Assembly: GCF_024757985.1 (NCBI RefSeq) | Contig: NZ_CP103289.1 | Span: 2,852,001-2,916,000, forward strand | Reading direction: 5' to 3' | Source of the DNA: Cellulomonas sp. NS3 | GTDB lineage: Bacteria; Actinomycetota; Actinomycetes; Actinomycetales; Cellulomonadaceae | Length of the DNA stretch: 64,000 nucleotides | Shown: piece by piece, positions 34,837-47,721 of the stretch | Position numbering within the stretch: position 1 is the stretch's first letter | How the letters are laid out: every line of letters begins with the position of its first letter | The notes under the pieces: generated by a model | Seen by the model: only the letters and a program-made list of their open reading frames with translations | The model's database searches: none | What the model was told of the DNA's origin: nothing | Position numbers and translations under genes: made by a program

Positions 34837-34897
34837 CGCCCCCGGGCAGCGGCGCGCGGTTCCACCCTTCCCCAACGTGCGAGACGAGGATCGATTC

Positions 34898-35683
34898 GTG
34901 AAGGCACTCGCAGCCCGCAGGCACCACCGGTACGCACCGGCCGTGCTGCTCCTGCTGGCGCTGCTGCTCACCGGAGGGCTGTACGCGGTCCTCGCACCGC
35001 AGGCGGCCGACGCCGCGCCGGCCGCGGCGGGCAGCGACGACATCGCCACCGGCGAGAAGATCTTCCAGGCCAACTGCGCGACGTGCCACGGCCCGTCGGC
35101 GGAGGGCACGGACGCAGCACCGTCGCTCGTGGGCGTCGGAGCGGCCTCGGTCGACTTCCAGGTCGGCACCGGCCGCATGCCGATGCAGGCGAACGGCCCG
35201 CAGGCCCCCGCCAAGGAGGTGCAGTTCACCGACGAGCAGATCGAGCAGCTCGCGGCGTTCGTCGCGTCGCTGGGCGCCGGCCCGTCGGTGCCGAGCGAGG
35301 AGATGGTGGACCCGGCGCAGGGCGACGTGGCGAACGGCATGGCCCTCTTCCGCACGAACTGCGCGATGTGCCACAACGCCGTCGGCGCGGGCGGCGCGCT
35401 CTCCGAGGGCAAGTGGGCCCCGTCGGTCGTCGAGACGTCGCCCCGGCACATCTACGAGGCCATGCTCACCGGCCCGCAGTCGATGCCCGTCTTCAACGAC
35501 GCGAACCTCTCCCCCGAGGAGAAGCGCGACATCATCGCCTACATCGACGCGCAGCGTGAGCCGTCCCCCGGTGGCATCAAGCTGGGATCGCTCGGCCCCG
35601 TCAGCGAGGGCGTGTGGATCTGGCTCGTGGGCATCGGCCTGCTGATCGGTATGTCCGTCTGGATCGGAGCGAGGTCCTCGTGA
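34898..35683 (+). CDS. qcrC: Diheme cytochrome c subunit of the bc1-type complex
   Basis: This 261-aa membrane-anchored cytochrome cc has an N-terminal signal/anchor (about 13-36), two c-type heme sites (CATCH at 60-64 and CAMCH at 155-159) and a C-terminal helix (about 236-257). It carries electrons from the Rieske centre to the oxidase without a soluble cytochrome c, which is the actinobacterial bcc design. The GTG start has GAGGA 9 nt upstream. Its stop overlaps the qcrA start by GTGA. Confidence 0.95.
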   Translation: MKALAARRHHRYAPAVLLLLALLLTGGLYAVLAPQAADAAPAAAGSDDIATGEKIFQANCATCHGPSAEGTDAAPSLVGVGAASVDFQVGTGRMPMQANGPQAPAKEVQFTDEQIEQLAAFVASLGAGPSVPSEEMVDPAQGDVANGMALFRTNCAMCHNAVGAGGALSEGKWAPSVVETSPRHIYEAMLTGPQSMPVFNDANLSPEEKRDIIAYIDAQREPSPGGIKLGSLGPVSEGVWIWLVGIGLLIGMSVWIGARSS

Positions 35684-36720
35684 GCATGCAGCACAACCCG
35701 GTTCCCGGGAACACCGAGGCCGTCGAGGTCCACCGTGACGGCGGGCACTACCCGGACCGCTTCGAGAACCCCGGTCTCGAGGAGCACCGCCCGCGTCTGG
35801 GCGACGTCGACCCGGCCGCGAGCAAGCGCGCGGAGCGTCAGGTCGTCGCGCTGTTCCTGGTCTCCCTGCTCGGCACGGTCGTCTTCATCGCGGCGTACTT
35901 CGTGGTGCCGCTCGGCGACACGCCCGAGACCATGCAGCGCTCGAACCTCTTCCTCGGGCTGGGCCTGTTCCTGAGCCTGTTCGGGATCGGCGCGGCCGCG
36001 GTCCACTGGGCCAAGGCGCTCATGAACGACCACGAGCGCGCGGAGGAGCGCCACCCGCAGCGCAGCTCCGACGAGAACCGCGCGGCCGCCATCCAAGCGC
36101 TCAAGGACGGTGCCGAGGACTCGGGCATCGGCCGCCGCGGCGTGCTCAAGGGCGCGTTCGCGTCCGCGCTCGCGATCTTCCCGCTCACGATCGTCCTGCC
36201 CCTCATCGGTGAGGTCGGCGAGGACTGGGACGTCTCGAAGTTCAAGCACACGTGGTGGAAGAAGGGCACGAAGCTCGCCCTCGACCCGTCTGGCGAGCCG
36301 ATCAAGGCCGCCGACGTCACCATCGGGTCGGTCTTCCACGTCATCCCCGAGGACCTGCACGAGGCCGAGCACCCGCTCGACGAGAAGGCCAAGGCCGTCG
36401 TGCTGCTCATCCGGATGGACCCGCGCGACCTCAAGTCCGAGCAGGGCGAGGGCTGGTCGTACGACGGCATCGTCGCCTTCTCGAAGATCTGCACCCACGT
36501 CGGGTGCCCCGTAGCTCTGTACGAGCAGCAGACGCACCACCTGCTCTGCCCGTGCCACCAGTCCACGTTCGACGTGGCCGACGGCGCCAAGGTCGTCTTC
36601 GGTCCCGCCAACAGGCCGCTGCCTCAGCTGCCCATCGAGGTCGACGACGAGGGCTACATCGTCGCGCAGTCCGACTTCCACGAGCCTGTCGGTCCGAGCT
36701 ACTGGGAGCGCCTGAAGTGA
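35680..36720 (+). CDS. qcrA: Rieske iron-sulfur subunit of the bc1-type complex
   Basis: This 346-aa protein has three membrane helices (about 50-72, 82-104 and 155-175) and a C-terminal Rieske domain. The [2Fe-2S] ligands are in CTHVGC and CPCHQSTFD. The three-helix N-terminus is specific to actinobacterial QcrA. A twin-Arg-like GRRGVLKGAF precedes the third helix, as expected for Tat-assisted insertion of the folded cluster domain. The GTG at 35680 overlaps the qcrC stop; an ATG two codons later is possible. Its stop overlaps the qcrB start. Confidence 0.95.
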   Translation: MSMQHNPVPGNTEAVEVHRDGGHYPDRFENPGLEEHRPRLGDVDPAASKRAERQVVALFLVSLLGTVVFIAAYFVVPLGDTPETMQRSNLFLGLGLFLSLFGIGAAAVHWAKALMNDHERAEERHPQRSSDENRAAAIQALKDGAEDSGIGRRGVLKGAFASALAIFPLTIVLPLIGEVGEDWDVSKFKHTWWKKGTKLALDPSGEPIKAADVTIGSVFHVIPEDLHEAEHPLDEKAKAVVLLIRMDPRDLKSEQGEGWSYDGIVAFSKICTHVGCPVALYEQQTHHLLCPCHQSTFDVADGAKVVFGPANRPLPQLPIEVDDEGYIVAQSDFHEPVGPSYWERLK

Positions 36721-38629: not shown

Positions 38630-39256
38630 ATGGCTGACTACACCCTTCCCGAGCTCCCGTACGACTACGCGGCGCTCGAGCCCCACATCTCCGGCAAGAT
38701 CATGGAGCTGCACCACGACAAGCACCACGCGGCCTACGTCACCGGCGCGAACACCGCGCTGGCCAAGCTCGCGGAGGCCCGCGAGAGCGGCGACCTCGCC
38801 GCGGTGAACCTGCACGAGAAGAACCTCGCGTTCAACCTCGGCGGGCACGTCAACCACACGGTCTTCTGGAACAACCTCTCCCCCGAGGGTGGCGGTGCAC
38901 CCACCGGCGAGCTCGCGGCCGCCATCGACGAGTTCTTCGGCTCGTTCGACGGCTTCCAGAAGCACTTCGCGGCCGTCGCGGCCGGCGTGCAGGGCTCCGG
39001 CTGGGCGATCCTCGCGTGGGACTCGATCGGCCAGAAGCTCGTCGTGGGCCAGCTCTACGACCAGCAGAGCAACATCGCCCTGGGCCTCGTCCCGGTGCTC
39101 ATGCTCGACGTCTGGGAGCACGCGTACTACCTGGACTACCTGAACGTCCGTGCCGACTACATCACGGCCTGGTGGAACATCGTCAACTGGGCCGACGCGG
39201 GCGAGCGCCTCGCGCGTGCGCGCACCCAGACGGCGGGACTGATCATCCCCGCCTGA
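38630..39256 (+). CDS. sodA: Superoxide dismutase (Mn/Fe family)
   Basis: This cytoplasmic SOD of 208 aa has the metal ligands His ([12 protein letters not shown]), His ([12 protein letters not shown]), and Asp/His ([12 protein letters not shown]). There is no signal peptide. Mn is likely from the overall family resemblance, but Fe or cambialistic use is not excluded. The ATG has AGGAGAGG 8-10 nt upstream. The gene sits between the qcrB terminator and the oxidase genes read from the other side, in its own unit; AT-rich bases right after the terminator (38561-38570) may be part of its promoter. Confidence 0.95.
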
Positions 39257-39712: not shown

Positions 39713-40111
39713 TCAGTGCGCGTGCTGACCGCGGGAGAACTCGAAGACGAAGCCGACGAGCGCGACCAGCCCGAGGACCGAGCCGAGACCGACCAGCCAC
39801 CAGCCCATCGCGAGCCCGGCGAAGACGAGGGCGGCCGCGAGGGCGATGGCGAGCGGCCACCAGCTCCACGGGCTGTACACACCCTGGTCGCCGGCGCCCT
39901 GCTCGATCTCGCCCAGCGGGTCGTCCTCCGGACGGTCGTCGATGCGCCGCGCCAGGAGCGCGAGGTAACCGCCGATCATCCCGACGAGCCCGCCCACGAG
40001 CGGGATGCCGAGCGTGCCGACCGGCTCACCGTCGCTCCACACGGCGTAGACCACGCCGACCGGGACGAAGAACAGGATGCCGTAGAGGAAGAGCTTGGCC
40101 TCGAGCTTCAC
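39713..40111 (-). CDS. ctaF: Cytochrome c oxidase subunit IV (CtaF)
   Basis: This 132-aa membrane subunit of the actinobacterial aa3 oxidase begins [20 protein letters not shown]. It has two helices in the first half (about 6-24 and 35-54), an acidic loop ([15 protein letters not shown]), then two helices to the C-terminus (about 85-125). This four-helix form matches Rv2199c/CtaF. The GTG at 40111 overlaps the ctaD stop by GTGA, making it the last gene of ctaC-ctaD-ctaF. Confidence 0.92.
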
Positions 40112-41919
40112 CGGTTGCCCTCCTGGTCCTTCACGTCCGGGAGCACGGTCGTGCTCGACTGCTCGGGCTCACCGGTGCCGTTGCGCACCCGCTCGTCCGC
40201 GAGCTCCTTCTGACCGGTGAGGTCGGCCTCACCGAGCAGCTCGTCGAGGACGTTCTGGTCCGGTGCCGCCTGGTCGAGCGCAGCGACCTCGGGGTGGTGC
40301 AGGTCGAACGCGGGGCGCTCGGACCGGATGCGCGGCAGCGACGTGAAGTTGTGCCGCGGCGGCGGGCAGCTCGTGGCCCACTCGAGCGAGCCGCCGAAGC
40401 CCCACGGGTCGTCGACCGTGACGAGCGGCGCCTTGCGCCAGGTCACGTAGACGTTCCAGAGGAACGGCAGCGTCGAGGCCGCGAGGACCACCGAGCCGAC
40501 CGTCGAGAGCTGGTTCATCCACGTGAACCCGTCCTCGGGCGAGTAGTCGACGTACCGGCGCGGCATGCCGACGACACCGAGCCAGTGCTGCACGAGGAAC
40601 GTCATGTGGAAGCCCACGAACAGCAGCCAGAAGTGCACCTTGCCGAGGCGCTCGTCGAGCATGCGGCCCGTGAACTTGGGCCACCAGAAGTAGAAGCCCG
40701 CGAACATCATGAACACGACGGTGCCGAACACCACGTAGTGGAAGTGCGCGACGACGAAGTACGTGTCCGAGACGTGGAAGTCCAGGGCGGGGCTCGACAG
40801 GATGATGCCCGTCAGGCCGCCGAAGAGGAACGTCACGAGGAACCCGAGCGTCCACAGCATCGGCGTCTCGAACGTGATCTTCCCGCGCCACATCGTGCCG
40901 ATCCAGTTGAAGAACTTCAGACCGGTCGGGACGGCGATGAGCATCGTCATGAGCGCGAAGAACGGCAGCAGCACCGCGCCGGTGACGTACATGTGGTGCG
41001 CCCACACGGTCACGGACAGGGCGGCGATCGCGAAGAACGCGTAGATCAGGCCCTTGTAGCCGAAGATCGGCTTGCGGCTGAAGACCGGGATGATCTCCGA
41101 GGCGATGCCGAAGAACGGCAGCGCGATGATGTACACCTCGGGGTGCCCGAAGAACCAGAACAGGTGCTGCCAGAGGATCGCTCCCCCGTTCTCGGGGTTG
41201 AACACCTGCGCGTCGAGCCGCCGGTCCGCGCCGAGAGCGAGCAGCGCCGACGCGAGCGGCGGGAACGCCATGAGCACGAGCAGGCTGGTCACGAGGACGC
41301 CCCACGTGAACACCGACATCCGGAACATCGTCATGCCGGGTGCGCGCATGCAGACGATCGTGGTGATGAAGTTGACCGCACCGAGGATCGTGCCGAAGCC
41401 ACCGAGGGCGAGGCCGAAGACCCACAGGTCACCGCCGAGCCCGGGCGAGTACGCCGTCGTCGACAGCGGCGTGTACGCGAACCAGCCGAACGACGCGGCA
41501 CCCTGCGGCGTGAGGAACCCGCCCACCGCGATGAGTCCGCCGAAGAGATACAGCCAGTACGCGAACATGTTGAGCCGCGGGAACGCGACGTCGGGCGCGC
41601 CGATCTGCAGCGGCATGATGATGTTCGCGAAGCCGGCGAACAGAGGCGTCGCGAACAGCAGCAGCATGATCGTGCCGTGCATCGTGAAGAGCTGGTTGTA
41701 CTGCTCGGGGGTCTGCACGACCTGGATGCCGGGCTCGAACAGCTCGGCGCGGATGAGCAGCGCCATGACGCCGGCGATGCAGAAGAAGACGAACGACGAG
41801 ATCAGGTACAGGTACCCGATGGTCTTGTGGTCGGTCGACGTCACCCACTTGATGACGGTCCGACCGAGGGTCTGGCGACGCGGCGCCAGACCGGGGATCC
41901 GCTCGGCGGTGGCGGTCAT
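40108..41919 (-). CDS. ctaD: Cytochrome c oxidase subunit I (heme a / heme a3-CuB core)
   Basis: The 603-aa catalytic subunit has 12 predicted helices and reduces oxygen while pumping protons. CuB and heme ligands are in [14 protein letters not shown] (His, and the cross-linked Tyr), WAHHMYVTG and [10 protein letters not shown]; the low-spin heme His is in FTMHGTIM. The hydrophilic C-terminal tail is Asp/Glu-rich. The ATG has AAGGAG 10 nt upstream and overlaps the ctaC stop by ATGA. In M. tuberculosis ctaD lies far from ctaC, so the joined order here is a local difference. Confidence 0.97.
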
Positions 41920-42794
41920 GAACCCTGGCTCCTTCTCGTGGGCGTGTCGAGGTCCTGGACGCGGCTGTACTCCAGGCCCAGCTCGCCCGTCTGCCCGCGC
42001 TCACGCAGGTCCTCGATGTGCGCGTCGTACTCCTCGCGCTCGACGACCTTGACGTTGAACAGCATCGACGCGTGGTACTCGCCGCACAGCTCGGCGCACT
42101 TGCCGGTGTAGTCGCCCACCTCCTGGGGGGTGACCTGGAACTCGTTGGTGAAGCCCGGGATCACGTCGAGCTTGTAGAGGAACGCGGGGATCCAGAACGA
42201 GTGGTTGACGTCGCGCGAGTCGAGCTCGAAGCGGACCGTCTCGTCGACCGGCAGGTAGAGCGTGGGCTGCTCGGCGAGGACGCCCGGGTCGCCTATGCCC
42301 TGCGCCTGCTGGCCCGTGTCGTACACCTGGTCGTCGACGTAGTTGAAGTCCCAGCTCCACTGCTTGCCGATGACGTGGACCGTCAGGTCGGGCTCCTCGC
42401 TGACGTCGGTGATCGCCGACATGTCGCGCGCGGTGTAGTAGAAGAGCACGCCGACCATGATCAGCGGGAGGATCACGTACATGACCTCGAGCGGCACGTG
42501 GTAGCGCAGCTGGACCGGCAGCGTGTTGTCGTTCTTGCGCTTGCGGTAGACCGTGATGCACCAGAGCATCAGGCCCCACGTGATGACGCCGACGATGAGC
42601 GCGGCGATCCACGAGCCGACCCAGAGGTTCGTGATCCGGCCGGTGTGGTCGGTCACCTCGGCCTCGGAGTCGCCGGGCAGCCAGCCGCGCTGGACCTCGG
42701 CGGAGCAGCCCGCCAGGGCGATGGACACGACGGCGACCAGGGTCGCCCACCTCACGGCGGGCCGCTGGTGCCGGCGGGGATTCTGCGAGTGCAC
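41916..42794 (-). CDS. ctaC: Cytochrome c oxidase subunit II (CuA), lipoprotein
   Basis: This 292-aa subunit has a lipoprotein signal (lipobox IALAGC, Cys30), two membrane helices (about 65-87 and 105-127) and an outer cupredoxin domain with the CuA site [14 protein letters not shown]. The Trp-rich electron-entry motif is [10 protein letters not shown] set the start at the GTG at 42794, which has GAGAGG 6 nt upstream; frames further upstream remain open but cross the repeats at 42845-42881. It heads the ctaC-ctaD-ctaF unit and diverges from the NifS-like gene. Confidence 0.93.
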
Positions 42795-42844
42795 GCGGGA
42801 CCTCTCACTCACGTCCCGGCGGCACGCCGCCGGGTGCTGGCGGA

Positions 42845-42881
42845 GGTTTCCCGGGACCTTCGTCCTCATTCCCGGGAAGCC
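42845..42881. promoter_or_regulatory. Paired TTCCCGGGA sites in the ctaC / NifS-like divergent region
   Basis: TTCCCGGGA occurs at 42848-42856 and 42869-42877, exactly 21 bp apart, two helical turns. The second is part of the perfect palindrome TTCCCGGGAA. The two can also fold together as a 12-bp imperfect hairpin in the ctaC leader. Confidence 0.45.
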
Positions 42882-42981
42882 TATCGCCTGTGCGGCGCGG
42901 ATTCGCTCCGACCGAGCCGCATGGCGACGCCGCGTCAGCATCGTGACGGGCCGCAGAAGGGCCTGCTCGGGCCCGGCGCGC

Positions 42982-42993: not shown

Positions 42994-44217
42994 GTGACCA
43001 CGCACGTCGGAGGACCGGCACCGGCCGGTGACCCGCGCCCGGGTGTGACGCATCCCACGTCCGCCGCCCGCGTCTTCCTCGACGCCGGAGGCCGTGCGCC
43101 CCTGAGCCGTGCCGCCCGCGCGGCGTTCGACGAGGCGCTCGACCAGGGCTGGGCCGACCCGCGACGGCTGCACGCGGAGGGCCGGCGCGCCCGGCTGCTG
43201 CTCGACGGCGCGCGCGAGGCCCTTGCCGCGGCGGTCGGCGCGCGCACCGAGGAGGTCGACCTCGCGCCGTCCCACACCGCGGGCCTGCACGGCGCGGTGC
43301 TGTCCGTGGCACGCGGCCGGCGCCGCACCGGCCGCGACGTGGTCGTCGGCGCGACCGAGCGTGCCGCGGTGCTGTCCGTCGCGGAGTTCGCCGCAGCCCA
43401 GCCGTGGTCGTCCGCGACGGGCTCGCGCGTCGTGGTGGAGGTCGACCGCGAGGGGCGCGTCGACGTCGAGGCCTACCGGTCCGCGCTCCGCTCCCCCGGT
43501 GTCGCGCTCGCGGCGCTGCAGCACGCGAACGGCGAGGTCGGCACCGTGCAGCCGGTCGAGGCGGTGCACGAGGCCGCGCACGCGGCGGGCGTGCCGCTCC
43601 TGGTCGACGCGGGCGCGAGCCTGGGGCACGTGGCGGTCCCCGACGCGTGGGACGTGCTCGCCGCCGATCCCGGCGACTGGGGCGGCCCGGCGGGCCTGGG
43701 GGTGGTCGTCACGCGCGCGGGGGTGCGGCGCGCGCCGGTCTGGCCGGAGGACGAGGACCGCTGGTTCCCGGGCGGCGTGAGCGTGCCGGCCGCGCTGTCC
43801 GCGGCGGTGGCGCTGCAGTCGGCCCTCGCGGAGCGTGCGGCGCAGGACGCGCGGCGCCGCACGCTGGTCGACCGGGTACGGGCACGGGTCGCGGCCGAGG
43901 TCCCCGACGTCGAGGTCGTGGGCGCCCGGGAGGCGCGGCTCCCGCACGTCGTGACGTTCTCGTGCCTCTACGTCGACGGCGAGGCGCTCGTCACCGAGCT
44001 CGACCGGCTCGGGTTCGCCGTCGGCTCGGGCTCCGCGTGCACGTCGAGCGCGCTCGAGCCGAGCCACGTGCTCGCCGCGATGGGCGTGCTCACGCACGGC
44101 AACGTGCGGCTCGCGCTCCCCGTGGACGTGACGGACGACGACGTCGAGCGGTTCCTCGCGGTGCTGCCCGGCGCGGTGGCCCGGGTCCGCGCGGTGCTCG
44201 GCGTCGAGGGGCTCTGA
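42994..44217 (+). CDS. NifS/IscS-like class V aminotransferase fold protein lacking the PLP lysine
   Basis: The 407-aa protein has the cysteine-desulfurase fold from LDAGGRAPLS to its end. The family's HVDA-type Asp205 and the catalytic Cys349 loop (GSGSACTSSALEPSHVL) are present. However, the SGHK segment that holds PLP reads DPGDWGGPAG: the Lys position is Asp228 and the His before it is Gly227. The PLP-stacking His is Arg123 (ATERAAVL), and the usual Gln after the Asp is Ala208. Classical PLP chemistry therefore looks impossible, while a Cys able to hold persulfide remains. It lies 5 bp upstream of a TusA-like gene and diverges from ctaC. The start is set by TAGCGT 6 nt upstream. Confidence 0.85.
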   Translation: MTTHVGGPAPAGDPRPGVTHPTSAARVFLDAGGRAPLSRAARAAFDEALDQGWADPRRLHAEGRRARLLLDGAREALAAAVGARTEEVDLAPSHTAGLHGAVLSVARGRRRTGRDVVVGATERAAVLSVAEFAAAQPWSSATGSRVVVEVDREGRVDVEAYRSALRSPGVALAALQHANGEVGTVQPVEAVHEAAHAAGVPLLVDAGASLGHVAVPDAWDVLAADPGDWGGPAGLGVVVTRAGVRRAPVWPEDEDRWFPGGVSVPAALSAAVALQSALAERAAQDARRRTLVDRVRARVAAEVPDVEVVGAREARLPHVVTFSCLYVDGEALVTELDRLGFAVGSGSACTSSALEPSHVLAAMGVLTHGNVRLALPVDVTDDDVERFLAVLPGAVARVRAVLGVEGL

Positions 44218-44222
44218 GCCCG

Positions 44223-44534
44223 GTGGCCGAGGTCGAGCCGCCGGAACGGCCGGAGGACGACCGGCCGGACGCTGCGGGTCCTCCCACGCACGCTCGTCAC
44301 GACGGCGTGGTGGTCGACGCCCGCGGGCTGCGCTGCCCGATCCCCGTGATCCGCCTCGCCCGCGCGGCCCGTGACGCGGCACCCGGCGCGGTGCTCACGG
44401 TGCTCTCGACGGACCCGGCGGCGCGGCACGACGTCCCGGCGTGGGCGCGGCTGCGCGGGCACGCGGTCGTCGCGTCCCGCGAGGAGCCCGAGGGCGCGCT
44501 CGCGATCAGCGTGCGGGTGGGGCCGGCGGACTGA
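44223..44534 (+). CDS. TusA-like sulfur-carrier protein
   Basis: This protein of 103 aa has a charged, Pro-rich lead of about 27 residues. A TusA/SirA domain follows: VVDARGLRCPIPVIRLARA with the sulfur-accepting Cys38 in the CPxP motif, and LTVLSTDPAARHDVPAW afterwards. TusA proteins accept persulfide from cysteine desulfurases and pass it on. The start GTG lies 5 bp after the NifS-like stop, with GAGGGG inside the preceding gene, so the two are one transcript. Fusions of the two domains are annotated in other actinobacteria, to my recollection. Confidence 0.87.
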   Translation: MAEVEPPERPEDDRPDAAGPPTHARHDGVVVDARGLRCPIPVIRLARAARDAAPGAVLTVLSTDPAARHDVPAWARLRGHAVVASREEPEGALAISVRVGPAD

Positions 44535-44745: not shown

Positions 44746-45096
44746 TCAGCCGAACGAGCCGCCGCACGCGCACGAGCTGCCCGCGTTCGGGTTGTCGATC
44801 GTGAAGCCCTGCTTCTCGATGGTGTCGGCGAAGTCGATCGTCGCGCCGTCGAGGTACGGGACGCTCATGCGGTCCACGACGACCTCGACGCCGTCGTAGT
44901 CCTTGAGGGCGTCGCCGTCGAGCACGCGCTCGTCGAAGTAGAGCTGGTAGATCAGGCCCGAGCAGCCGCCGGGCTGGACGGCGACGCGCAGACGCAGGTC
45001 GTCGCGCCCCTCCTGCTCGAGCAGGCTGCGGACCTTGCCCGCGGCGACGTCGGTGAGGAGGACGCCGTGCGTCGCGGTCTCGGTGGTCTCGCTCAT
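44746..45096 (-). CDS. erpA: A-type iron-sulfur cluster carrier (ErpA/HesB)
   Basis: The 116-aa A-type carrier has the three invariant cysteines Cys45 (QPGGCSGL), Cys109 and Cys111 (SSCACGGSFG). It delivers [4Fe-4S] or [2Fe-2S] clusters to client enzymes; nadA, whose product needs a [4Fe-4S] cluster, lies 1.4 kb away, and the Rieske gene is also near. The start ATG has GGGAGC 8 nt upstream; a longer upstream frame is noise. The Rv2204c-Rv2205c pair in M. tuberculosis has the same order, HesB after the glycerate kinase gene. Confidence 0.93.
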   Translation of the reverse strand: MSETTETATHGVLLTDVAAGKVRSLLEQEGRDDLRLRVAVQPGGCSGLIYQLYFDERVLDGDALKDYDGVEVVVDRMSVPYLDGATIDFADTIEKQGFTIDNPNAGSSCACGGSFG

Positions 45097-45277
45097 TGGT
45101 TGCTCCCGTGCCTCGAGGAAAGGTCGAGTGGTGCTCAGCACTCTCGTCAGCGTCGTCAACAGCCCGGCGCCGCGTCTTGTTCCCTCAGCGTACGCCGCGG
45201 TGCGGAGCCCTCCTGCGCACGCCCTGCGTGACGCGCACGGCACGGACGCTCGACGTCGCAGGCCTCGGGCCCGGCTG

Positions 45278-46465
45278 TCAGCGCGCCCAGGTCCGCGCGA
45301 CCCGCTCGACCCGGCGCCCGAGGGTCCCGGCGGGGTCCGCGAGCGACTCCCGGACCTGCTCGGGCGTCTCGGCGACCGCGTACGCGGCGGCGATCCCCGC
45401 GGCGCCCCACTCACGGCGCCCGACGTCCACCTGCCCCGCGAGCACGACCGTGGGCACCGCGAGCGGCAGCGCACGCGCGGCGACCGCGGCGACGACCTTG
45501 CCGTGCAGCGACTGCCAGTCGAACCGGCCCTCGCCCGTGAGCACCACGTCGACGTCCGCGATGCGCTCACCGAGCCCGACCGCGTCGGCCACGAGCGCCG
45601 AGCCCGGCAGCAGGCGCGCGCCGAGGAGCGCGAGCCCGAAGCCGAGGCCGCCGGCCGCTCCCGCGCCGGGCTGCGCGGCGAGCCGGGTCACCGGCGCCGA
45701 CGCCCGGGCGCCCGCGAGCAGGTCGGGCCGGACGGACCCGGCGAGCGCCCCGACCGCGACGTGCGCGAAGTGCCCGAGGGCGCGCTCGAGCTCCTGGGCC
45801 TGCACCGGGGTCGCGCCCTTCTGCGCCGCGAAGCCCGCGCTCGCGCCGTGCAGCCCGAGCAGGGGCACGTCGACGTCGTACGCGCCGACGAGCTCGACAC
45901 CGGCCAGTCCCGAGCGGACGTCCGCGAGCGCGTCGAGGTCCTCGGCGAGGACGTCGCCGAGCTCACCACCGCCACGCCCGAGCGGCGACGGCGGGCCGCC
46001 GACACCGAGCGCGGCGAGCATCCCGGCACCCGCGTCGTTGGTCGCGGAGCCGCCGAGCCCGACGACCACGCGCCGGACACCGGTCGCGACCGCGGCGCGC
46101 AGCAGCTCCCCGACGCCGTACGTGCTGGTCACCGCCGGGTCCCGCCGCCCGGGCGGGACGAGCGCGAGGCCCGCGGCGTGCGCCGACTCGACGTACGCCG
46201 TCCCCGGACCGCCGTCCGCGCCGGCGACCACGAGCACCGCGGCCGGGACCGGCTCGCCGAGCGGCGAACGGACGGTCACCGAGAGCATCTCGCCACCGAG
46301 GCTCGCGCGCAGCGTCGCGAGGAAGCCGGGGCCACCGTCGGACAACGGGCACACGCGCACGTCCGACCCCGGGACGGCGCGCAACCAGCCGTCACGGAGC
46401 ACGGTCGCGGCCTCCTGGGCCGTGAGGGTCCCGCCGAAGTCGTCGGGGGCGATCAGCACGCGCAC
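45278..46465 (-). CDS. Glycerate kinase
   Basis: This 395-aa glycerate kinase of the GlxK/GckA type makes phosphoglycerate from glycerate and ATP. Signature segments are IAPDDFGGTLTAQEAA (usually APDSFKG), PLSDGGPGFL, GLGGSATNDAGAGML, and LTGEGRFDWQSLHGKV. The S-F-K to D-F-G change in the first motif is a small departure from the family. The start GTG at 46465 is 7 nt after CAGGAT. It diverges from nadA across only 41 bp and is followed by the ErpA gene on the same strand, 181 bp away. Confidence 0.88.
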   Translation of the reverse strand: MRVLIAPDDFGGTLTAQEAATVLRDGWLRAVPGSDVRVCPLSDGGPGFLATLRASLGGEMLSVTVRSPLGEPVPAAVLVVAGADGGPGTAYVESAHAAGLALVPPGRRDPAVTSTYGVGELLRAAVATGVRRVVVGLGGSATNDAGAGMLAALGVGGPPSPLGRGGGELGDVLAEDLDALADVRSGLAGVELVGAYDVDVPLLGLHGASAGFAAQKGATPVQAQELERALGHFAHVAVGALAGSVRPDLLAGARASAPVTRLAAQPGAGAAGGLGFGLALLGARLLPGSALVADAVGLGERIADVDVVLTGEGRFDWQSLHGKVVAAVAARALPLAVPTVVLAGQVDVGRREWGAAGIAAAYAVAETPEQVRESLADPAGTLGRRVERVARTWAR

Positions 46466-46506: not shown

Positions 46507-47721
46507 GTGACCCTCACGACACCGCCGCAGGACACCACGTTCACGGAGCCCGCCCCGTCGGCGCTGCTGCTCCTCGGGCGCGGGGTCGACCTCGCCTCCG
46601 AGCGCGGCGTCGAGTGCGTCGGGTCGCTGCCGGCCGCGAGCGACCCCGACCTCGTCGAGCGCGCGCACGCGGCCCGCGCCGCCCTCGGCGACCGCGCGTT
46701 CGTGCTCGGCCACCACTACCAGCGCGACGAGGTGATCGACCTCGCGGACGTCACCGGGGACTCGTTCAAGCTCGCGCGCGAGGCGGCGGCCCGCCCGGAG
46801 GCCGAGTTCATCGTGTTCTGCGGCGTGCACTTCATGGCCGAGTCGGCGGACATCCTCACGTCCGACGCCCAGCAGGTCGTGCTCCCGGACCTCGCGGCGG
46901 GCTGCTCGATGGCGGACATGGCGGCGATCGACCAGGTCGAGGACGCGTGGGACGTGCTGGTCGAGGCGGGCGTCGCGGAGGACACCGTCCCCGTGACGTA
47001 CATGAACTCCACGGCGGCGATCAAGGCGTTCACCGGGCGCCACGGCGGCACGGTCTGCACGTCGTCGAACGCGCACGTCGCGCTGCGCTGGGCGTTCGAC
47101 AAGGTCGGCGGCGTCGAGGGCACGGGCAAGGTCCTGTTCATGCCCGACCAGCACCTCGGCCGCAACACCGCGGTGAACCAGCTCGGGCTCTCGCTCGACG
47201 ACTGCGTGGTGTTCGACCCGCGCCGGCCGAACGGCGGGCTCACCGCCCAGCAGCTCAAGGACGCGCGGATGATCCTGTGGCGCGGGCACTGCTCGGTGCA
47301 CGGCCGCTTCTCCGAGCGCAACGTCACCGACATCCGGGCGGCGGTCCCCGGCGTCCACGTCCTGGTGCACCCCGAGTGCAAGCACGAGGTCGTGACCGCG
47401 GCGGACATGGTCGGCTCGACGGAGTACATCATCCAGGCGCTCGCCGCGGCGGAGCCGGGGTCGTCGTGGGCGATCGGCACCGAGCTCAACCTGGTCCGGC
47501 GCCTGGCTCGCGCGCACGCCGACAAGCAGGTGCACTACCTCGACTCGACGGTGTGCTTCTGCTCGACGATGAACCGCATCGACCTGCCGCACCTCGTGTG
47601 GACGCTGGAGTCGCTCGTGGCCGGCCGGGTCGTCAACCGCATCGTCGTCGACGCGGACGACGCCCACTGGGCCCGGGTCGCGCTCGACCAGATGCTCGCG
47701 CTGCCGGGGTACGGCGCATGA
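46507..47721 (+). CDS. nadA: Quinolinate synthase A
   Basis: The 404-aa NadA condenses iminoaspartate with dihydroxyacetone phosphate to quinolinate for NAD synthesis. Its [4Fe-4S] cluster ligands are Cys in VFCGVHFMAE, VCTSSNAH and STVCFCSTMN; GHHYQRDEV and MNSTAAIKAF are other family marks. nadB and nadC are not in the window; the next two genes are unrelated. The start GTG is close to GAAGAT. The stop overlaps the next start (ATGA). Confidence 0.95.
   Translation: MTLTTPPQDTTFTEPAPSALLLLGRGVDLASERGVECVGSLPAASDPDLVERAHAARAALGDRAFVLGHHYQRDEVIDLADVTGDSFKLAREAAARPEAEFIVFCGVHFMAESADILTSDAQQVVLPDLAAGCSMADMAAIDQVEDAWDVLVEAGVAEDTVPVTYMNSTAAIKAFTGRHGGTVCTSSNAHVALRWAFDKVGGVEGTGKVLFMPDQHLGRNTAVNQLGLSLDDCVVFDPRRPNGGLTAQQLKDARMILWRGHCSVHGRFSERNVTDIRAAVPGVHVLVHPECKHEVVTAADMVGSTEYIIQALAAAEPGSSWAIGTELNLVRRLARAHADKQVHYLDSTVCFCSTMNRIDLPHLVWTLESLVAGRVVNRIVVDADDAHWARVALDQMLALPGYGA

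Follow-up and report, generated by a model that had tools for sequence, protein, structure and literature searches.

A NifS/IscS-fold protein without the PLP lysine, encoded between the aa3 oxidase genes and a TusA-like gene in Cellulomonas

We show here, by comparison of orthologues, that an actinobacterial protein of the cysteine desulfurase fold has had its PLP site dismantled but has retained this fold, its mobile cysteine loop and in most cases the TusA partner. The gene lies in a 64,000-nucleotide stretch of Cellulomonas sp. NS3 DNA, referred to below as the window. We see about an even chance that the product is a former desulfurase that has been retained as a PLP-free cysteine-loop protein, which would most likely relay a persulfide to TusA. 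Lysine-less IscS proteins are already known from archaea (excerpts of PMC7585200); in our literature searches, which were limited to open-licence papers and in several cases narrowly worded, we recognised no paper on this actinobacterial lysine-less gene. The features of the locus are as follows.

39713..40111, minus strand: ctaF, oxidase subunit IV (PF12270)
40108..41919, minus strand: ctaD, aa3 oxidase subunit I (NF050116, 1007.9 bits, cut-off 880)
41916..42941, minus strand: ctaC, aa3 oxidase subunit II, divergent and 52 bp off (NF050117, 345 bits, cut-off 250)
42994..44217, plus strand: NifS/IscS-fold protein without the PLP lysine, 407 aa (open frame, PF00266, AlphaFold2 model, Foldseek)
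43360..43362, plus strand: Arg123 codon at the site of the PLP-stacking His (His in 65/65 lysine-bearing, Arg in 108/123 lysine-less orthologues)
43666..43680, plus strand: Asp225-Pro226-Gly227-Asp228-Trp229 at the site of the Ser-x-His-Lys PLP motif (letters, residue counts)
43675-43677, plus strand: Asp228 codon at the PLP-lysine site
44038..44040, plus strand: Cys349 codon, loop cysteine, the persulfide site in desulfurases (letters; 187/187 orthologues covering the site)
44223..44534, plus strand: TusA-like sulfur carrier, 103 aa, CPIP cysteine at residue 38 (PF01206)
44746..45096, minus strand: ErpA/HesB-type Fe-S carrier, convergent (PF01521, 57.1 bits in ORF 44746-45570; start set at the Met preceding the domain)
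46507..47721, plus strand: nadA, quinolinate synthase, an Fe-S enzyme

The protein and its remodelled PLP site

The 407-aa protein carries a class V aminotransferase domain (PF00266, 101.8 bits against a Pfam cut-off of 21.5), and its AlphaFold2 model has a mean pLDDT of 89.6 and a pTM of 0.88, with a pLDDT below 50 in the cysteine loop (residues 348-354). When this model was used in a Foldseek search, M. tuberculosis IscS ranked first and A. fulgidus IscS fifth, and TM values of 0.84-0.91 against the IscS structures 4ISY and 4EB5 point to a class V aminotransferase/IscS fold; by sequence, A. fulgidus IscS is the best PDB match. The best NCBIfam score was obtained with TIGR03402 (199.7 against a cut-off of 530.75), a cut-off that is also missed by the lysine-bearing orthologues L137 (234.4) and L143 (284.7) and by the genome's own NifS, L002 (388.4). 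This intact NifS is 37-38% identical to the window protein, whose closest named relative is that of Cellulomonas cellasea (88%).

Of the hallmarks of a desulfurase, the IscS fold and the loop cysteine Cys349 are present, and the Schiff-base lysine is replaced by Asp228, the stacking His by Arg123, and the phosphate-binding Ser and His by Asp225 and Gly227. The PLP-site stretch accordingly reads ADPGDWGGPAG, compared with VSGHKVGGPGG in the genome's own NifS. A substitute lysine elsewhere in the chain, named in an earlier note on this DNA as a finding that would speak against its reading, is ruled out, since the 407 residues include no lysine at all; the two cysteines are residues 324 and 349.

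Contacts to PLP and substrate were mapped by alignment from SspA (excerpts of PMC7188994). Among 132 positions conserved to at least 90% in the lysine-bearing rows, ten (86, 94, 123, 124, 180, 207, 225, 227, 228 and 374) drop below 20% in the main lysine-less group, and five of these ten belong to the eight conserved mapped contacts (Fisher p 4e-5, a value that serves as a guide only because the rows share ancestry). The changed residues are concentrated in the PLP cradle, where the phosphate-binding Ser site is Asp225 in the window protein and Thr95 is relaxed in the lysine-less group. No such change has affected the cysteine loop, nor the residues that contact pyridine N1 and the substrate carboxylate: Asp205, for the former, is found in 123/123 lysine-less rows and Arg372, for the latter, in 122/122. 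Gly180 aligns with the substrate Asn site, at which 63 of the 65 lysine-bearing orthologues already have His and not Asn.

The earlier note had described an intact desulfurase fold and Cys349 loop in a clean frame with a TusA-like CPIP gene 5 bp downstream, and all of this, including the coordinates and the motif, proved correct. It had further proposed that four cofactor contacts were lost jointly. The residues that it named (R123, A208, G227 and D228) are correct; however, Ala208 also occurs in 14/65 lysine-bearing orthologues, which rules out the change from Gln as part of a joint loss, and more than four contacts have changed, as Asp225 at the Ser site and Gly180 at the substrate Asn site have to be added. 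Its proposal of a non-PLP protein agrees with our results, in that the missing lysine and the remodelled cradle would make desulfurase action very unlikely.

Arg123 is accompanied by Asp or Glu at position 228 in 102/108 rows, with Ala or Gly at this position in five Arg123 rows, whereas His123 is found together with an acid in 0/79. This association, though it has largely one origin, suggests that Arg123 and the acid at position 228 may form a salt bridge in an empty pocket.

Distribution, descent and selection

From 214 loci, 8 NifS-type paralogues (below 300 bits) and 18 identical rows were removed, which left 188 distinct orthologues; these were collected largely by similarity to the query, and the counts given here are not natural frequencies. 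The lysine is present in 65 and absent from 123 of them, with D in 100, K in 65, S in 10, A in 8, E in 2 and G, Q and T in 1 each at site 228, and 90 of the 123 lysine-less rows are entirely free of lysine within the aligned region. Cys349 is found in each of the 187 orthologues that span the site (122/122 for the lysine-less rows), the remaining row ending before it. An orthologue is present in 6/6 other genomes of the genus sample, in about 103/121 genomes of the family sample (E 1e-60 or better, counted by hand), in 49/198 genomes of the order sample (E 1e-42, two of the 49 resembling the NifS paralogue) and in 192/394 genomes of the class sample (profile E of 1e-90). Larger groups were subsampled to give the family, order and class samples, and the latter two contain family genomes. 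One sequence in the collection, L075, comes from a bin labelled Proteobacteria and falls among the Cellulomonas rows, so that the bin is probably mislabelled.

Trees were built without the trait columns, after removal of two short rows and of near-copies; further thinning gave 112 rows for a quick tree, and 68 rows were used for a careful tree, from which L207, L210 and most Asp/Glu rows were excluded. In both trees a single clade unites the order's lysine-less rows; in the careful tree it has a support of 99/92 and was recovered in 200/200 bootstrap trees. L207 sits among the Cellulomonas rows on a long branch in the quick tree, and its placement is doubtful. Orthologues from Kribbella, Nonomuraea and Catellatospora retain the lysine. 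Apart from the main clade there are two additional single losses, L191 (K to A; genome completeness 75%) and L193 (K to Q; completeness 100%), in both of which the Ser and His beside the Lys have also been lost, His123 and Cys349 are kept and the adjacent TusA has a CPLP motif. In the quick tree A. fulgidus IscS, represented by a partial sequence, groups with the NifS paralogue outgroup with a branch support of 100, and therefore its Lys-to-Asp change appears to be separate, that is, convergent; a count of changes on the careful tree agrees that its lysine-less state is not due to common descent.

As judged from these trees, the loss of the lysine is old and not a local error. The earlier note had considered that homologues with the lysine restored would point to local loss or a sequence error; such homologues do exist (65/188), yet they fall outside the old lysine-less clade, and so neither local loss nor error accounts for the missing lysine. 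Purifying selection on the lysine-less genes is no weaker than on the lysine-bearing genes, with a median dN/dS of 0.152 over 92 close lysine-less pairs against 0.191 over 62 lysine-bearing pairs, although the pairs are not mutually independent. For the window gene and its nearest relative dN is 0.0535 and dS 0.362. The one old clade and the low median thus uphold the view that the gene is conserved and not decaying.

Gene neighbourhood and the TusA-like partner

One gene order, with ctaCDF divergent, TusA next and ErpA beyond, is common to lysine-bearing and lysine-less loci. Considering loci of at least 10 kb, ctaC lies divergently upstream in 55/57 lysine-less and 29/31 lysine-bearing cases, and ErpA lies downstream in 55/57 and 25/31, respectively, which extends across loci the position between ctaC and ErpA that had been pointed out for the window gene. 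In L107 the gene is inverted between ErpA and ctaC, and no ctaC match was found at loci L178, L182 and L210. The same respiratory neighbourhood of the window holds qcrC and qcrA of the bc1 complex (34877-36720) and an Fe/Mn superoxide dismutase (38630-39256). A role in CuA supply, which the earlier note had also entertained, is weakened, because the CuA site faces the outside of the membrane and proteins of the NifS and TusA types act in the cytosol; on this topology we regard it as unlikely.

The TusA-like gene, whose start follows the NifS-like stop after 5 bp, is the sole PF01206 match in the genome (73 bits, cut-off 28.6), and its product misses the NCBIfam TusA equivalog cut-off (47.2 against 78 bits). 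TusA is adjacent or fused in 65/65 lysine-bearing rows (4 fused) as compared with 102/123 lysine-less rows (1 fused), in line with the linkage that had been noticed in the window. Of the remaining lysine-less rows, one has no flank and 20, each with 900 bp of flank or more, have no adjacent TusA, and 6 of 20 genomes probed, which were picked partly for a missing adjacent TusA, gave no TusA match. Cys349 is nevertheless retained in 20/20 lysine-less rows without adjacent TusA, which rules out TusA as the sole partner.

The cysteine of the TusA CPxP motif is kept in 165/167 pairs of the alignment count, with one pair not covered and one having Asn, and in 101 of the 102 lysine-less pairs. In contrast, the second TusA cysteine (PAWC), which corresponds to residue 75 of the window protein encoded at 44223-44534, is present in 65/65 lysine-bearing pairs and in 17/102 lysine-less pairs, where it is mostly replaced by Ala (alignment count); thus the TusA partner has been altered too. 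One genome (G268) has two lysine-less copies, L209 and L210, and the latter adjoins a TusA-like ORF in which Asn replaces the motif cysteine. Trp229, nearly constant elsewhere, is Val in L105, L110, L116, L117 and L122, all five of which are without adjacent TusA. In G010, G128, G162, G190, G242, G268 and G294 a TusA domain occurs inside open frames of 837-911 codons that are distant from the NifS-like gene and encode a different protein.

Comparison systems and possible functions

The closest comparison is A. fulgidus IscS (PDB 4EB5, 4EB7, 4HVK, 4R5F), which shares with the window protein the desulfurase fold, the Lys-to-Asp change, the Ala at the Gln site and the loop Cys. According to excerpts of PMC7585200 and PMC9769115 this protein has no desulfurase activity, and its Cys321 is a ligand of a [2Fe-2S] cluster held by IscU. 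A figure legend in PMC9769115 describes its structure as drawn with PLP; the Lys-to-Asp change alone therefore need not block PLP binding, and the loss of PLP binding that we propose for the window protein would rest on the further changes. Unlike the window protein, A. fulgidus IscS has kept the stacking His and the Ser, has an IscU partner and lost its lysine separately. At the window locus the neighbour is TusA and not IscU, and the genome's only NifU_N match adjoins SufS. Methanosarcina acetivorans IscS1 is likewise without the catalytic lysine, but it is encoded with IscU (excerpts of PMC7585200). In E. coli, sulfur passes from IscS to TusA within a known complex of the two (excerpts of PMC2854127). 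This complex (PDB 3LVJ, 3LVK) has both folds and the pairing in common with the window pair, although E. coli IscS is an active PLP enzyme. The two E. coli genes are presumably not an adjacent pair. The lysine-bearing orthologues from Kribbella, Nonomuraea, Catellatospora and others are 53-56% identical over the alignment and also have TusA adjacent and ctaC divergent; in contrast to the window protein, the PLP Lys, the Ser and the stacking His are all present.

According to the reading that we prefer, the protein would have originated as the cysteine desulfurase of an old, ctaC-linked NifS-TusA gene pair in actinobacteria. In the ancestor of a Micrococcales clade the Lys, the adjoining His and Ser and the stacking His were replaced, and cysteine cleavage was very probably lost with this dismantling of the PLP site. 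Most likely, Cys349 would then take up sulfane sulfur from another source, be it the intact NifS, SufS or a small persulfide, and hand it to the TusA-like protein, from which it could meet the respiratory demand for Fe-S clusters or for sulfur in other forms. Intact desulfurases, all with the HK motif, are encoded in the genome, namely SufS, with a SufU-type gene next to its own, another protein like SufS, and the NifS discussed above, whose gene adjoins an ORF that we take, by its motif, to be mnmA-like.

The main alternative, which we consider unlikely but well worth keeping in mind, is by analogy with A. fulgidus IscS that the protein supplies no sulfur and that Cys349 may instead help to coordinate an Fe-S cluster while this is being assembled on a scaffold or carrier protein, such as ErpA or one of the SufU type. 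The shared Lys-to-Asp change and the cluster-binding cysteine of the inactive archaeal protein are consistent with this, as is the downstream ErpA. That Cys349 persists even without TusA speaks for a function going beyond TusA and leaves this alternative in play. However, the usual neighbour is TusA and not IscU, the sole NifU_N match being next to SufS, and ErpA also lies beside the lysine-bearing forms, hence it is not tied to the loss of the lysine. The same cysteine weakens the proposal, in our opinion an improbable one, that the protein acts as a regulatory or structural partner that pairs up with an intact desulfurase in mixed dimers or serves to hold TusA, passing no sulfur through its own cysteine: such a role alone would not require Cys349, which is never lost. 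LCB1, which is paired with LCB2 in serine palmitoyltransferase, offers a comparison, and the intact NifS in the same genome and the fold, preserved in the predicted model, would be compatible with it.

Still more improbable is that PLP is bound without a Schiff base, or that another ligand is bound, and other chemistry done. The constant Asp205 and Arg372 of the lysine-less rows speak for this, but the Lys, Ser, His and stacking His have all been replaced and the phosphate loop has changed (sites 94 and 95). Least probable, and very much so, is a decaying gene or a sequence error, to which one might ascribe that 149/198 genomes of the order sample are without a match at E 1e-42, or that in G004, a member of the same genus, the orthologue (L008, L015) is split over two reading frames, by an assembly error or a real frameshift. 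Against this stand the purifying selection, the one old clade, the presence of Cys349 in all rows covering the site and the occurrence of the gene in about 103/121 genomes of the family sample, and we have rejected this explanation.

Taken more broadly, we put slightly below an even chance the proposal that actinobacteria have made a desulfurase PLP-free on three or more occasions, and archaea independently of them, to act through its loop cysteine alone, and that in one large Micrococcales clade it has become an old and dedicated component of a pathway for sulfur or Fe-S that is fed by other desulfurases and tied to the aa3 oxidase and to a TusA mostly without its second cysteine. Such proteins are readily annotated as cysteine desulfurases, probably wrongly. 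The lysine-bearing and lysine-less orthologues, found in one gene order, provide a natural series in which the role of the loop cysteine could be studied separately from PLP chemistry. If our proposal is true, the desulfurase fold would have a second, PLP-free job that evolution has reached several times, and the gene would indicate that the respiratory chain of actinobacteria is linked to a sulfur or Fe-S step that has yet to be described.
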